From positions 1 to 22,420 of IMG/VR virus record IMGVR_UViG_3300044678_001986: 22,420 bases of DNA. One strand, 5' to 3'. Positions 1-3,634 of the stretch are shown one piece after another (positions within the stretch are counted from its first letter, which is position 1; each line of letters starts with the position of its first letter). Position numbers and translations under genes: made by a program. The DNA is from a virus. The notes under the pieces are model-generated. The model had not been told where the DNA came from, did not search any database, and was given only the letters and a program-made list of their open reading frames with translations.

Positions 1-2
1 TT

Positions 3-125
3 TACGGACCCGGATCAGACGGGCGGATAGATTATTCGGAACCACGTGACTGGCCCTGCTGGTGGCCCAGTCGCATTACGAGCGATTTCTGTGATAAATA
101 TATGATTCCGTGGGTGTTGGCATAA
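3..125 (+). CDS. C-terminal part of an integron cassette gene, unknown function
   Basis: The frame is open from the window edge to a TAA at 123-125, giving about 40 residues that end in WVLA. The start lies outside the window. As in five cassettes downstream, the stop codon is formed by the R'' core of the attC that follows (GCATAAC at 120-126), which is the main reason to believe it is a real cassette gene. The visible end is rich in Trp, Cys and Pro (a short WPCWWP motif), and I do not recognise a family. If the cassette follows the rule seen in its neighbours, its missing left end should begin GTTATGCC. Confidence 0.6.
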   Translation, partial: YGPGSDGRIDYSEPRDWPCWWPSRITSDFCDKYMIPWVLA

Positions 126-209
126 CGACGGCGTTCACGTGGCCGCCGTGAACGATTTCAATTCATAAACCCGCGTTGTCGGCGGCTCCCGTGCAACGCC
201 TTGTTATCT
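120..209 (+). other. attC recombination site (first visible)
   Basis: R'' is GCATAAC at 120-126 and R' is GTTATCT at 203-209. The arms inside pair: GGCGTTCACG...GCCGCC at the left with GGCGGCTCCCGTGCAACGCC at the right, leaving bulged bases on one side as attC sites need for bottom-strand folding. IntI would cut after the G of R' (203). Confidence 0.9.
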
Positions 210-221
210 GGAGTTCGTGGT

Positions 222-461
222 ATGGGATTTCCGACAAGTGCTCACATCCGGCAGTTTATTCGTGGCAAAGTATTTGCTGACATTTCTGCTGACACGGCAG
301 GTGATGTCGTCTTGCATTTCGAAGACGGTGAATCGTTACGTTTGCGGCACCACGCGAAGCAGCCAGAACGACCTGAAGTCGAGGTAATCGCGACTCCATT
401 TCGCGCTGATGGCACAGTGAAGCAGACGATCGAAATCGATTTTAATGTCACTTCCAGATAA
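222..461 (+). CDS. Integron cassette protein, 79 aa, unknown
   Basis: The start is ATG 222, preceded by TGGAG (209-213) at about 8 bases spacing; a longer reading from TTG 201 would begin inside the attC and is less likely. The stop TAA (459-461) is part of the R'' core AGATAAC (456-462). The protein is small and soluble-looking, with an acidic beta-rich middle (residues around DVVLHFEDGESLRLR) and no membrane segment or signal peptide. I do not recognise a family. It is the only gene of the cassette 204-539 and has no visible promoter of its own, so it is probably read from an upstream cassette promoter outside the window. Confidence 0.8.
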   Translation: MGFPTSAHIRQFIRGKVFADISADTAGDVVLHFEDGESLRLRHHAKQPERPEVEVIATPFRADGTVKQTIEIDFNVTSR

Positions 462-545
462 CGACGGCATTCACCGGGTTGCGGCCGGTGACTTCAATTC
501 TTTAGGAACCGTGACCCGCAACTCCGGTGGAATGCTTTGTTAGCA
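456..545 (+). other. attC site
   Basis: R'' AGATAAC (456-462), R' GTTAGCA (539-545). The arms CGGCATTCACCGGGTTGCGG and CCGCAACTCCGGTGGAATGC pair with extra bases on one side. The closing sequences of the cassette to the left (GTTATCTGGA at its start, TCCAGATAAC at its end) are perfect reverse complements. Confidence 0.93.
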
Positions 546-553
546 GGTGTTTT

Positions 554-763
554 ATGGTTGTTGATAAAAATGGCGTGGAGATTAAGCCCGGCCAAAATGT
601 GTTGGTACACAATGACGAAGGGACACGCGAGGCGATCGTCGTTCAGCCGTTTCCCACCCATCCGACGCTTAATTCTCCGGGACATTGGGTGGACGTGAAC
701 ATTGATAATGCAGGTCCACAAGGGATGCCGTCGTACATTCTTGAAGTGCGGGCATCCTGCTAA
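554..763 (+). CDS. Integron cassette protein, 69 aa, SH3-like barrel candidate
   Basis: The start is ATG 554, with a weak AGG-type ribosome site at 544-547; the stop TAA is the one inside the R'' core TGCTAAC. The N-terminus (VDKNGVEIKPGQNVLVHND) has the pattern of small KOW/SH3-like barrels found in many cassette and phage proteins: a short strand, a Gly turn, then a 'G..V.V' strand. The rest alternates short strands and turns and ends SYILEV. No catalytic residues stand out. The fold call is inference from pattern only; the role is unknown. Confidence 0.8.
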   Translation: MVVDKNGVEIKPGQNVLVHNDEGTREAIVVQPFPTHPTLNSPGHWVDVNIDNAGPQGMPSYILEVRASC

Positions 764-843
764 CGACGGCATTCACCGGGCCGACGGTGGATGATTTTTC
801 TTCGAACCGGGTGAATCGGCTCCGGTGCAATGCTTTGTTATCT
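758..843 (+). other. attC site
   Basis: R'' TGCTAAC (758-764), R' GTTATCT (837-843). Inner arms GGCATTCACCGGGCCGA and TCGGCTCCGGTGCAATGC are complementary. Its cassette starts GTTAGCAGG and ends CCTGCTAAC, a perfect 9-base complement. Confidence 0.93.
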
Positions 844-855
844 GGAGTGTTTTGT

Positions 856-1137
856 ATGCTGGGTTTTGACGAGTTGTCAGCCGACGATGAATATGGCGAC
901 GAGATAAACAATAAATTCGACGAGGTAATGCAGAACAACGTGCCCGCTCGTCGTGGGTACGATGCCGCAAAATCCTACGGTTTGTCTGAGGAGTATCGAT
1001 TGAAAGCGGCAATCGTGCAGTTGACTGAGATGAACCGCAGAGCAATGGCGATCATCACAGATGCAATCATGCACGGCATGCCGATTACGCCTGAGGTTGC
1101 CGACGTGAGAAATCAGATTGTTGGTTCTTCCAGATAA
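856..1137 (+). CDS. Integron cassette protein, 93 aa, unknown
   Basis: The start is ATG 856 with TGGAG at 843-847 about 8 bases upstream; the stop TAA lies in the R'' core AGATAAC. The first third is very acidic (FDELSADDEYGDE). The second half looks helical (LKAAIVQLTEMNRRAMAIITDAIMHGM), with a Pro-containing turn (MPITPEV) before a final helix. No known family is recognised, and there is no signal peptide or membrane segment. It is the sole gene of the cassette 838-1231. Confidence 0.8.
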   Translation: MLGFDELSADDEYGDEINNKFDEVMQNNVPARRGYDAAKSYGLSEEYRLKAAIVQLTEMNRRAMAIITDAIMHGMPITPEVADVRNQIVGSSR

Positions 1138-1237
1138 CGACAGGCATCACCGGTGCCGACGAAAGACGAGGAAAAACGAATGACTGAAGGAACTGACAAC
1201 ACGCCTGCATCGGCTCCGGTGGATGCCTTTGTTCTAC
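1132..1237 (+). other. attC site carrying a translation start in its loop
   Basis: R'' AGATAAC (1132-1138), R' GTTCTAC (1231-1237). The arms AGGCATCACCGGTGCCG and CGGCTCCGGTGGATGCCT pair. The unpaired middle holds a good ribosome site (GAGGA, 1168-1172) and an ATG at 1180 whose frame stays open through R' into the next cassette. At 106 bp it is longer than the other sites here (86-93 bp). Confidence 0.9.
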
Positions 1238-1497
1238 CGCTTTGGATTGATCTGCTTCGCCATACTCTCGGAGCAAGGCCGGAACAGCGAAAAGCGGATC
1301 ACGGATACCGCAATAAGTTTTGTGCTTCTGTGGGCTCATCGCACTGGTTGCATTTTGTGGCAATGGTCGATGCTGGTTTAGCCACAGCTGGTGGAATGAT
1401 TAACGATGGCAAACAGCAGTTTTTTTCGGCAACTGTAGCTGGTTGCGAAGCCATCGGTTTGAGTCCATCGGCGATCAAACGAGCTTTTGAGGATTAG
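1180..1497 (+). CDS. Cassette protein, 105 aa, initiated inside the upstream attC
   Basis: The best start is ATG 1180, 7 bases after GAGGA (1168-1172). Both signals lie in the loop of the preceding attC. Translation crosses the R' crossover point (1231) into the cassette that carries the rest of the gene. Inside the cassette (from 1232) there is no in-frame ATG, GTG or TTG before the motif LLRHTLG, which looks like the start of the folded domain; the first in-frame ATG comes only at 'AMVDAG'. The domain (LLRHTLG...YRNKF...LVDAG-like...GLSPSAIKRAFED) resembles small phage and cassette proteins of unknown function. The first 17 residues are thus donated by another cassette. The stop TAG is 3 bases before R''. 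Confidence 0.75.
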   Translation: MTEGTDNTPASAPVDAFVLPLWIDLLRHTLGARPEQRKADHGYRNKFCASVGSSHWLHFVAMVDAGLATAGGMINDGKQQFFSATVAGCEAIGLSPSAIKRAFED

Positions 1498-1500
1498 TCG

Positions 1501-1591
1501 GTAGAACGCAGGCGTTAACCGGACCGCGAACGGTTGACGCTGATTGCAGAAAACGCCTGATTCACGGTTCCGGTTCAACGCTTTGTTCTGC
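1501..1591 (+). other. attC site
   Basis: R'' GTAGAAC (1501-1507), R' GTTCTGC (1585-1591). Arms AGGCGTTAACCGGACCG and CGGTTCCGGTTCAACGC pair. Its cassette begins GTTCTACCG and ends CGGTAGAAC. Confidence 0.92.
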
Positions 1592-1599
1592 CTCTCTTT

Positions 1600-1636
1600 G
1601 GAAACGCTTTCCAGTTATTTTCGAAAATCTTTCGAA
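1600..1636 (+). promoter_or_regulatory. Two small inverted repeats in the leader of a two-gene cassette
   Basis: GGAAA-CGC-TTTCC (1600-1612) and TTCGAAA-ATC-TTTCGAA (1620-1636) are perfect inverted repeats, 7 bases apart. They lie in the 135-base leader of the cassette, just upstream of a weak promoter candidate. They could be operator half-sites for the basic protein encoded downstream; this is inference. Confidence 0.4.
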
Positions 1637-1652
1637 TCTGTTTGAATACTCG

Positions 1653-1680
1653 TTGACGAATCAGACGAAGTAAGTAATAC
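1653..1680 (+). promoter_or_regulatory. Weak sigma70-type promoter candidate inside a cassette
   Basis: TTGACG (1653-1658), 16 bases, then TAATAC (1675-1680). The -35 matches well and the -10 is poor. The unusually long leader of this cassette makes an internal promoter plausible; self-expressed cassettes are often toxin-antitoxin units. Confidence 0.3.
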
Positions 1681-1726
1681 TTCCCTTAGTCGAACGCAAC
1701 GCAAACAACCAGCAAGGAAAAGAATA

Positions 1727-1891
1727 ATGAAAAAGTCAGCCTCAGAAATCATCAGCCTGCGAAACACTCTGCTGTCACAGGTTCGACCAACACGACTGAC
1801 AGGAAATCGCGAACTGATGCACGAACTGGTAATCCGCATTCGTCAGCTGGACGGAATCTTGGAAGCCCGATCACGAAAGGTGCAGGAATGA
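1727..1891 (+). CDS. Small cassette protein, 54 aa, first gene of a coupled pair
   Basis: ATG 1727 follows AAGGAAAAG (1714-1722). The frame runs to TGA 1889-1891, which overlaps the ATG (1888) of the next gene as ATGA, the usual sign of translational coupling. The product is basic and almost entirely helical in appearance: MKKSASEIISLRNTLL, then RELMHELVIRIRQLDGILEAR, with Leu/Ile spacing suggesting a helical hairpin or short coiled coil. I do not recognise a family. It shares the cassette 1586-2168 with a basic DNA-binding-like protein. A regulatory or toxin-antitoxin pair is one possibility, but no toxin family is recognised. Confidence 0.7.
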   Translation: MKKSASEIISLRNTLLSQVRPTRLTGNRELMHELVIRIRQLDGILEARSRKVQE

Positions 1892-2085
1892 GAGGAGGAT
1901 CCCGGAAGGGGGCCGGGCGAAAGCCCGGCCTCGGAGAAACGAAGGTTGACAAGAATATTGCCCTGACGCCTACGCTGTGGGCTTTTCTTATGTCAGGCGG
2001 AAATTCGGCTGGCCATGAAATCGAAACGCGTCTACGGAAGTCTGCGGCGTTTAAGGCGTGGTTGAAGAATCAGGTTTCGGAGTAG
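1888..2085 (+). CDS. Basic cassette protein with GGSRKGAGRKPG N-terminus, 65 aa
   Basis: It starts at ATG 1888, overlapping the previous stop, with AGGTGCAGG just upstream; TAG 2083-2085 sits immediately before R'' (2086). The N-terminus GGSRKGAGRKPG is a Gly/Arg/Lys-rich arm common in small phage and plasmid DNA-associated proteins. It is followed by 'NIALTPTLWAFL', a strand-helix pattern that could be a ribbon-helix-helix-like unit, and a C-terminal helix (SAAFKAWLKNQ). DNA binding is inference. Together with the upstream 54-aa protein it forms a two-gene cassette operon whose leader holds inverted repeats that this protein could bind. Confidence 0.78.
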   Translation: MRGGSRKGAGRKPGLGETKVDKNIALTPTLWAFLMSGGNSAGHEIETRLRKSAAFKAWLKNQVSE

Positions 2086-2174
2086 GCAGAACGCTACCCA
2101 TCAACGGGCGGCGACAAACAAATTTACCATCCCAAACGACGTGACCGCCGCTCCGTTGCATGGGTTTGTTATGC
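2086..2174 (+). other. attC site
   Basis: R'' GCAGAAC (2086-2092), R' GTTATGC (2168-2174). Arms ACCCATCAACGGGCGGCG and CGCCGCTCCGTTGCATGGGT pair. Its cassette begins GTTCTGCCT and ends AGGCAGAAC. Confidence 0.92.
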
Positions 2175-2193
2175 GGCTTTTTTATGGTGATGT

Positions 2194-2733
2194 ATGCAGT
2201 ACGATTTTCAGAGCATTGTGAACCGAATTTCTCGTGATGGGTGGGGACAAGACTTTGAGACCCAAGAGGAAGCGGACCAACATTTGATTGACAACCCGCA
2301 GGAGTTGGCGGCACACGCAGCAGTTGAATTGTTGTCGCGCCTTACGGCGATCGCACGAGCCATTGGCGGATCGATTGAAGATGATGAAAGCAAGATCGAC
2401 GAGCCAGAAGAACCAATGGACGGTTCCATGTTTGCGGTCGGTCAAAAGCTCTACAAGTACGAGTACGGCCTGAGCGTGGAAGAGTACGTGGTGATCGCGA
2501 AGGATGAAGCGAATCGTCTGTTGATTATCAAGTGCAATGATTTTTCGTTGGAGTATCCGCCGTCGCCAAGGATTGCGGAAAAAGAAGATGGATTAGTGGC
2601 GGACATCAAGATTGCCTTGCAAGAAGCGATTGACAAAACCGAAGAGCGTGCAAAGGCGATGCTTGCCAACGCGAAGAAGGCGAGATCGGAAATGGCGGAC
2701 GGCAAGTCGTTGGATGATTACAAGTCCGCATAA
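2194..2733 (+). CDS. Integron cassette protein, 179 aa, unknown
   Basis: This is the largest cassette gene here. ATG 2194 begins the frame; there is no clear ribosome site, and other ATGs at 2184 and 2190 are in another frame that soon closes. The stop TAA is inside the R'' core GCATAAC. The first half is acidic and helical (EEADQHLIDNPQELAAHAAVELLSRL), followed by an acidic linker (DDESKIDEPEEP). Then comes a small beta-rich segment (FAVGQKLYKYEYGLSVEEYVVIAKDEANRLLIIKC) and a Lys/Glu/Ala-rich C-terminal helix likely to form a coiled coil. No family is recognised, and it has no signal peptide or membrane segment. It is the sole gene of the cassette 2169-2812. Confidence 0.85.
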   Translation: MQYDFQSIVNRISRDGWGQDFETQEEADQHLIDNPQELAAHAAVELLSRLTAIARAIGGSIEDDESKIDEPEEPMDGSMFAVGQKLYKYEYGLSVEEYVVIAKDEANRLLIIKCNDFSLEYPPSPRIAEKEDGLVADIKIALQEAIDKTEERAKAMLANAKKARSEMADGKSLDDYKSA

Positions 2734-2818
2734 CGACGGCGTTCACCGGGTTGCGGCCGGTGACTCGGAATTCTGATTCAGCGCGGACCGCAACTCCGTG
2801 TGCAATGCTTTGTTATTT
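2728..2818 (+). other. attC site
   Basis: R'' GCATAAC (2728-2734), R' GTTATTT (2812-2818). Arms GGCGTTCACCGGGTTGCGG and CCGCAACTCCGTGTGCAATGC pair. Its cassette begins GTTATGCGG and ends CCGCATAAC. Confidence 0.93.
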
Positions 2819-2822
2819 TGCC

Positions 2823-2954
2823 ATGCAACGGATTATAAAAGCGGTAGAAGAGTTGTTTATCTGGATCACAGCGGTGCTCGCATTTCTCGTGATTTGTGGA
2901 GTGCTTGGGGCGTTCATTCTATTTGTGATTTGGTTGCATACTGGAGGTGTGTGA
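2823..2954 (+). CDS. 43-aa single-span membrane peptide in a two-gene cassette
   Basis: ATG 2823 lies only 10 bases after the R' crossover point, so it has no room for a good ribosome site. The frame ends at TGA 2952-2954, which overlaps the next ATG (TGATG). After an amphipathic start (MQRIIKAVEELF) comes about 27 uninterrupted hydrophobic residues (roughly 12-38), a clear transmembrane helix, then HTGGV. Its function is unknown; small membrane peptides in cassettes are often toxins or modulators, but nothing here proves it. It is coupled to the 71-aa gene downstream. Confidence 0.65.
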   Translation: MQRIIKAVEELFIWITAVLAFLVICGVLGAFILFVIWLHTGGV

Positions 2955-3169
2955 TGACCCTGAGTGAACTGAGGGAAGCAGTCGCGGATGCGATCGAAAA
3001 GGCAGCGGAATTTGGTGAGTCTCCGGACGACATTCTAGTTTCAGTGCAAATCGACACATGCGGAAAAGACGGCGAACAATGTTTCACAGACAGCACAGGT
3101 GACGTGGAGCTGCACTATGACGGGAACCTGACAGCGTCTGGTTGCGTTCTTGTCGGGGTGTCAAAATAA
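2954..3169 (+). CDS. Integron cassette protein, 71 aa, second gene of pair
   Basis: ATG 2954 overlaps the previous stop (TGATG) and has the strongest ribosome site of the array, TGGAGG (2942-2947). The stop TAA lies in the R'' core AAATAAC. The protein begins with an acidic helix (TLSELREAVADAIEKAAEFGE) followed by strands (DILVSVQIDTCG, DVELHYDG, CVLVGVSK) and has three cysteines. No family is recognised. The tight overlap with the small membrane peptide suggests they work or are dosed together. Confidence 0.8.
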   Translation: MTLSELREAVADAIEKAAEFGESPDDILVSVQIDTCGKDGEQCFTDSTGDVELHYDGNLTASGCVLVGVSK

Positions 3170-3256
3170 CGACCAGCGGTAACCGGGCCGCCGACAAGAG
3201 GCTCGGATTTGTGAACACGGCAGATCGGCGGCTCCGTGTTCACCGCTTTGTTATCC
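3164..3256 (+). other. attC site (last complete one)
   Basis: R'' AAATAAC (3164-3170), R' GTTATCC (3250-3256). Arms AGCGGTAACCGGGCCGCCGA and TCGGCGGCTCCGTGTTCACCGCT pair. Its cassette begins GTTATTTTG and ends CAAAATAAC. Confidence 0.92.
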
Positions 3257-3274
3257 GTCGTTTGTGGTGACGCT

Positions 3275-3457
3275 ATGCAGGACGAAAGAACCTTGAGAGA
3301 GATCGCAAGTAAACTGAAGGCCGATGGGATGCGGTGCAATTGTGATTTGGATAATTGGGAACCAGAGAAGTCAACCGGTCATTCTTGTGTATGTCGTATT
3401 CACAAAGAGTCGCAGCGAATCAAATACCGTCCTCATGACGTTGCCAAACAAGTCTGA
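3275..3457 (+). CDS. Cys-rich cassette protein, 60 aa, possible metal binder
   Basis: ATG 3275 follows GGTGA (3266-3270); an upstream in-frame GTG at 3236 lies inside the attC. The protein has an N-terminal helix, then CNCDLDNWEP, then GHSCVCRIHKES. The four Cys in two CxC pairs plus His could bind a metal ion. Similar 'CDLDNWEP...TGHS..CRIHK' segments occur in small phage and cassette proteins of unknown function (general recollection, not searched). TGA 3455-3457 precedes R'' by one base. This is the last cassette before the phage genes, and the attC after it is broken. Confidence 0.75.
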   Translation: MQDERTLREIASKLKADGMRCNCDLDNWEPEKSTGHSCVCRIHKESQRIKYRPHDVAKQV

Positions 3458-3480
3458 CGGATAACTTTGAATTATCCGTC
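3456..3480 (+). other. Broken attC / possible tyrosine-recombinase core site at the integron-phage junction
   Basis: The R'' core GGATAAC (3459-3465) pairs with the cassette start at 3250-3256 as expected, but the usual GACGGC... arms do not follow. Instead TTTGA leads into TTATCCGTC, so that GACGGATAA (3456-3464), 7 bases, TTATCCGTC (3472-3480) form a perfect 9-7-9 inverted repeat. Arm and spacer lengths fit a tyrosine-recombinase core site. It lacks a T-run, so a terminator is unlikely. Confidence 0.6.
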
Positions 3481-3634
3481 GCGTGTGGTTTTCGGAATAT
3501 CACTTTGCGCGTGATATCCCGATATCGCTTTCGCAAAACACAGCGAGCCGGACGGGTTTCCCCGCCGGCTCTCCCGGTGCTGTGGTGTGGGCCTGCATGG
3601 TGCCAAGGCCGTAGGCTATGACGGTCCGGTGCTT
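3481..3634. other. Non-coding junction between integron and phage genes, rich in inverted repeats
   Basis: No convincing gene. It holds TTTGCG (3504-3509) and CGCAAA (3532-3537) flanking two GATATC words (3513-3518, 3521-3526), then a strong hairpin (3545-3571). It could be a prophage end with arm-type sites, or only the late-operon 3' end. Confidence 0.5.
3545..3571 (-). terminator. Hairpin downstream of the last tail gene
   Basis: GAGCCGG, one bulged A, CGGG, loop TTTC, CCCG, CCGGCTC: an 11-bp stem. On the - strand it is followed by GCTGTGTTTTGCG, a weak T tract. It lies about 64 bases after the stop of the last late gene, so it is probably the end of the late operon. Confidence 0.5.

Follow-up and report, generated by a model that had tools for sequence, protein, structure and literature searches.

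Inverted attC sites in a phage cassette array and the likely use of an attC loop as a gene start

Results and Discussion

We consider it likely that a phage genome carries an integrase-less array of inverted gene cassettes at an attI-like site, in which about a quarter of the cassettes, including the one at 1138-1506, use the loop of their own attC as translation initiation region. The evidence consists of the anatomy of the site, its recurrence in related contigs, the agreement of reading frame between attC and gene, the lack of other starts, the orientation markers, the match to an attI and the joint travel of attC and gene. The stretch analyzed (22,420 bp, an IMG/VR virus record) is referred to below as the window. 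The array occupies positions 1-3464 and consists of eight attC sites and short + strand genes, while the remainder of the window holds - strand phage head and packaging genes (portal, capsid/protease and terminase). The array sites show the imperfect palindrome, AAC...GTT ends and extrahelical bases of attCs, and were scored with a covariance model built on 16 array sites. The features of the array are as follows:

120..209, + strand: attC, 91.0 bits
456..545, + strand: attC, 89.5 bits
758..843, + strand: attC, 72.3 bits
1132..1237 (flanking R-box bases to GTTCTAC), + strand, which is the gene strand and is minus in the integron convention: leader-bearing attC, 61.3 bits, itself among the training sequences of the model
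1138..1506, + strand: proposed cassette of 369 bp, made up of its own 5' attC and the gene; AA^C crossovers at 1137/1138 and 1506/1507
1168..1171, + strand: Shine-Dalgarno sequence GAGG (GAGGA at 1168-1172), in the attC loop, 8 nt 5' of the start codon
1180..1182, + strand: ATG, predicted start codon within the attC loop
1180..1233, + strand: leader codons MTEGTDNTPASAPVDAFV, encoded by the attC loop and right arm
1180..1497, + strand: cassette gene, 105 aa, matching phrog_13561
1231..1233, + strand: GTT, putative uncut R'' side; the crossover according to an earlier note on this DNA
1501..1591, + strand: attC of the cassette after 1138-1506, 79.7 bits
2086..2174, + strand: attC, 74.7 bits
2728..2818, + strand: attC, 87.0 bits
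3164..3256, + strand: attC of the final cassette ahead of the attI-like site, 79.5 bits
3463..3524, - strand: attI-like site at the right array end, minus strand GGGATATCAC...GACGGATAATTCAAAG^TT

An attC loop in frame with a cassette gene

The earlier note had placed GAGGA 1168-1172 and ATG 1180 in the unpaired middle of an attC, and the coordinates, the attC score and the RNA fold bear this out. As RNA, attC 1132-1237 has a folding energy of -33.3 kcal/mol (z -3.4 versus shuffles) with the Shine-Dalgarno sequence and AUG in the apical loop; folded as DNA, the site gives z values of -3.6 and -4.2. The GAGG has a duplex energy of -5.9 kcal/mol with ACCUCCUUU. From ATG 1180 the frame is open to the stop TAG at 1495-1497, and GTTCTAC (1231-1237) complements GTAGAAC (1501-1507), confirming the boundary of the next cassette. 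We also agree with the earlier observation that a usable start is missing from the cassette ahead of its conserved domain: between GTT 1231 and the conserved LLRHxLG motif there is no ATG, GTG or TTG, and the first in frame is a GTG 99 nt past GTT. The match of the protein to phrog_13561 (E 1.8e-8) begins at residue 23. In homologues (Sphingomonas plasmid, Pseudomonas phage Aurca01, planctomycete genome) 3-16 residues precede the motif; barring a rare start codon, translation should therefore begin 5' of the cassette body. A single-protein scan of viral contigs returned no relative of the gene, and none of the window's cassette proteins has a Pfam or NCBIfam match over cut-off. We predict that ribosomes initiate at ATG 1180.

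Ribosomes that end at the upstream gene's TAA (1135-1137), about 42 nt before ATG 1180, might restart there, and such coupling has been proposed for attC short ORFs of class 1 integrons (PMC8876359). We regard this as possible but doubtful. The presence of a Shine-Dalgarno sequence makes independent initiation at ATG 1180 plausible, which counts against coupling, and in the described cases the short ORF terminates and translation of the following gene resumes at a codon of that gene, whereas here the frame is the gene. Coupling leaves the start site itself unchallenged and is compatible with initiation in the attC loop as we propose it.

Orientation and boundaries of the phage cassettes

In a standard attC, the extra helical bases lie on the arm adjoining the preceding gene, as we checked in aadA1 of plasmid R721 and in the first cassette of a planctomycete integron. 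Extrahelical bases, with other unpaired features, determine which attC strand is chosen (review PMC8946536). In 84 of 85 phage attCs the extra bases are on the right arm in the sense of the gene, whereas they are on the left arm in aadA1 and the host attC. Likewise, genes on the attC model strand stand at 48:8 in phage arrays versus 13:60 in chromosomal arrays. Pairs of cassettes with the same gene point the same way: the upstream attC was kept (88-100% identity) in 5/7 pairs and the downstream attC in 0/5, where kept means at least 88% identity against a background with a mean of 62% and a 95th percentile of 81%; in two of the seven pairs neither attC was retained.

The ends of the arrays provide another marker. 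Every phage array with a visible right end finishes with gene-AAC followed by TTTGAATTATC, the reverse complement of the attI core of the planctomycete genome G003, and the same end is found in 11 arrays. In G003, intI is adjacent to TTAATTCAAAG^TT; next come a + strand gene and an attC, in the normal order. No attC follows the last gene in any phage array whose right end is visible, and a plain standard-cassette reading was dropped on this ground. Because of the orientation markers, the match between array end and attI, and the co-travel of upstream attCs, we take the cassette to be an attC plus the gene after it, with the crossover at 1137/1138. Integron attCs lie 3' of their genes; on the markers above, the phage attCs are inverted relative to the genes, and each lies 5' of the gene to which it belongs.

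The earlier note had drawn the cassette differently, with the attC belonging to the upstream cassette and the crossover at GTT 1231, such that the frame would cross the crossover point, the loop would act as a trap feeding any cassette inserted in frame after it, and proteins would gain a variable N-terminus. This is the standard reading of cassette arrays, and near-identical leader attCs (92-97%) do stand in frame before unrelated genes. Nonetheless, we judge it unlikely, as it is contradicted by the orientation markers, the position of the attI-like site, the right array ends without attC and the co-travel of attC with the downstream gene, and the downstream attC is kept in no same-gene pair. 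What stands is the open frame running on to 1497; the gene that it continues into appears to share a cassette with the attC, as opposed to being that of the next cassette, and the crossover moves from GTT to AA^C 1137/1138. With ATG 1180 in the gene's own cassette, the loop would be neither a trap for a neighbor nor the source of a shuffling-dependent N-terminus: start and gene would move together, leaving the protein unchanged by shuffling. The near-identical leader attCs before unrelated genes nevertheless indicate past changes in which leader goes with which gene, and together with the two pairs in which neither attC was retained they argue for some exchange on the GTT side also. To this extent, a weak form of the trap idea may survive alongside the inverted cassettes that we favor.

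Attachment site, integrase and host

The attI-like sequence GATATCAC...GATAATTCAAAG^TT is found at window 3463-3524 and at the ends of L085-L092, L094 and L124, with no intI in the contigs. As its core is common to the phage arrays and the G003 integron, it is a candidate attI at the start of the array. We found no TIGR02249 match in the window and none over cut-off in the phage records, where fragments are possible, and the array accordingly lacks the adjoining intI of a complete integron. The pattern GGAGTAAAACATGGA was too unspecific as a probe, matching mostly unrelated sites; most of the 39 attI-pattern loci were rejected as chance matches in coding DNA, and of the newly fetched loci only L109, L113 and L124 have an attC at the model threshold, two of these belonging to or duplicating contigs already included. 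Based on the shared attC class and attI, the phages probably infect planctomycetes.

Candidate attC starts in related phage contigs

Across related phage contigs, the covariance model picked up about 80 attCs. An in-frame attC ATG backed by a Shine-Dalgarno sequence occurs in 19/80 cassettes from 11 related phage contigs, at least one per contig; the contigs are mutually related and the counts not fully independent, and the frame-match count leaves out L124_2117 (wrong left coordinate). In a closely similar set, 18/73 phage attCs combine a Shine-Dalgarno sequence, ATG and open frame, versus a shuffled expectation of 4.2 +/- 2.0 (no more than 10 in any of 300 shuffles), whereas in planctomycete chromosomal arrays there is no excess (2/91 attCs versus 2.0 in shuffles). 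An exact search of the genome contigs for the Shine-Dalgarno leader pattern gave zero matches, so the chromosomal comparison uses the broader attC pattern. That the in-frame ATG 1180 is chance, one attC among thousands, has a negligible probability and was ruled out by the shuffle counts, since purine-rich loops give a background of about 4/73 against the 18/73 observed and the loops are conserved in other contigs.

The loop of attC 1132-1237, with Shine-Dalgarno sequence, ATG and 18 codons, recurs in other phage contigs. A leader homologous to that at 1180-1233, MTEGTENAGASAPVHAFV, is present in L011 and L015, and in L011, L015 and L016 the loop recurs as GACGAGG-spacer-ATGACTGAAGGAACTGA, joined in frame to another gene, HTPGPW...ANARLIAAAPDLLEAC. 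Leaders are read in one of two frames, ending either in ...APVxxxV, with GTT read as a codon, or in CS (for example ...CASPCS). The attC loop and right arm encode the first 14-20 residues, which are mostly hydrophilic, and the ORFs that start in an attC have their stop 1-14 nt before the next crossover. Cassette ends are complementary (R''/R') in 78/80 cassettes. A start backed by a Shine-Dalgarno sequence within 45 nt after GTT is found in 0/19 attC-start cassettes versus 29/44 other short cassettes (p 5e-7), a contrast that may partly reflect how the classes were set.

These comparisons bear on whether translation begins in the cassette body at a rare codon (ATT 1246 or CTG), with the attC ATG being chance or part of a short non-fused ORF. 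In bacteria infC uses an ATT start, which gives a precedent, and in several attC loops, L091_2497 among them, the Shine-Dalgarno sequence and ATG are in a frame other than that of the gene. ATT 1246 lacks a Shine-Dalgarno sequence, though, and the 19 frame-matched cassettes, the enrichment over shuffles, the absence of other starts and the upstream extension of the homologues all speak for the attC start, making a rare-codon start very unlikely.

Two DNA methyltransferase cassettes have the attC-start arrangement with a weaker Shine-Dalgarno sequence; the pair at L087 5490 and 7853 (minus-strand coordinates) have attCs that are 99% identical and share the first residues MKAENGMTATPVEPIV. A PAPS-reductase-like cassette (L089 4738) starts in its attC, with profile position 3 aligning at residue 21, below the Pfam cut-off; its nucleotide-binding loop comes directly after the attC.

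A proposed route of loading and expression

We somewhat favor a scheme in which a phage lineage keeps a copy of a host attI and a host integrase loads compact inverted cassettes, with one hairpin serving as recombination site, translation start and N-terminal codons. The attI-like site would have been copied from, or be shared with, planctomycete integrons, and host IntI would presumably act in trans, inserting inverted cassettes at that site. A transcript would enter from the left and run through the array, and ribosomes would initiate either immediately 3' of an attC or, for about one cassette in four, within the loop. In those cassettes the apical loop would be the initiation region, loop and right arm would supply the 14-20 leading residues, and the coding region, beginning in the attC loop and stopping just short of the next crossover, would take up almost the entire cassette. 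A start in the attC loop would work because the cassettes are inverted, which puts the hairpin before its own gene, not behind the previous one.

If true, the double role of the hairpin lets coding sequence fill nearly the whole cassette, and would place the attC under a double constraint, that of folding for recombination and that of coding for a protein start. The phage cassette set would be turned round relative to that of the host. This bears on how cassette genes without a 5' region of their own are expressed, on why the orientation of attC to gene matters, and on how phages tap host integrons. It also carries a risk for annotation, as treating an attC as non-coding, or as the preceding gene's, would misplace starts or miss genes.

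In the open-access papers that we searched, we found no attC described as providing the translation start for the inverted cassette to which it belongs. The nearest relatives are ORF-11 and ORF-18 of attI1 in class 1 integrons, which aid translation by coupling (Hanau-Bercot 2002, as cited in PMC8876359). There too, a recombination site with Shine-Dalgarno sequence and start codon helps to translate a poorly started cassette gene. However, ORF-11 as presented in that account lies in attI and helps only the first cassette, through coupling to a separate downstream start, whereas the phage ORF lies in the attC of its own cassette and continues as the gene, its codons being the protein N-terminus. 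Short ORFs in attCs overcome the block posed by the hairpin through termination-reinitiation (Jacquier 2009, as cited in PMC8876359) and resemble the phage case in that an ORF within an attC is translated, as we predict for the phage loop; as cited there, that ORF is separate and its attC is the upstream cassette's, while the phage ORF is fused in frame within one inverted cassette. CALINs and integrons have been reported in phage genomes (PMC9892861), and these CALINs, like the present arrays, are attC arrays without integrase; in the part of that report drawn on here they run mostly in the normal direction with no mention of attC translation starts, whereas the genes studied here are systematically inverted at an attI-like site. 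Finally, fused cassettes such as blaGES-1/aacA4 (PMC4670013) also join a coding frame to attC-derived sequence, but there the attC is lost, whereas in the phage cassettes it is complete.

Other features of the arrays

Window 1-119 is part of a cassette gene seen whole in L011 (MPHVHV...WVLA), where the start is in the attC too. At L090 6617 and L094 7539, compared with window 1172-1179, the 7-8 nt spacer from Shine-Dalgarno sequence to ATG is wholly different between two copies of a cassette that is nearly identical elsewhere. At L091 2497, the attC has a strong Shine-Dalgarno sequence and ATG, and the leader frame ends within a gene whose own start is in a different frame. Window 1507-2085 contains a 504-nt cassette body with two small ORFs, a 98.8% identical copy of which occurs in L015/L016, adjoining a relative with the first 148 nt in common. 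Lastly, an inverted repeat (AGCCGG...CCGGCT, window ~3540-3570) lies between the convergent array and phage genes and is a possible terminator.
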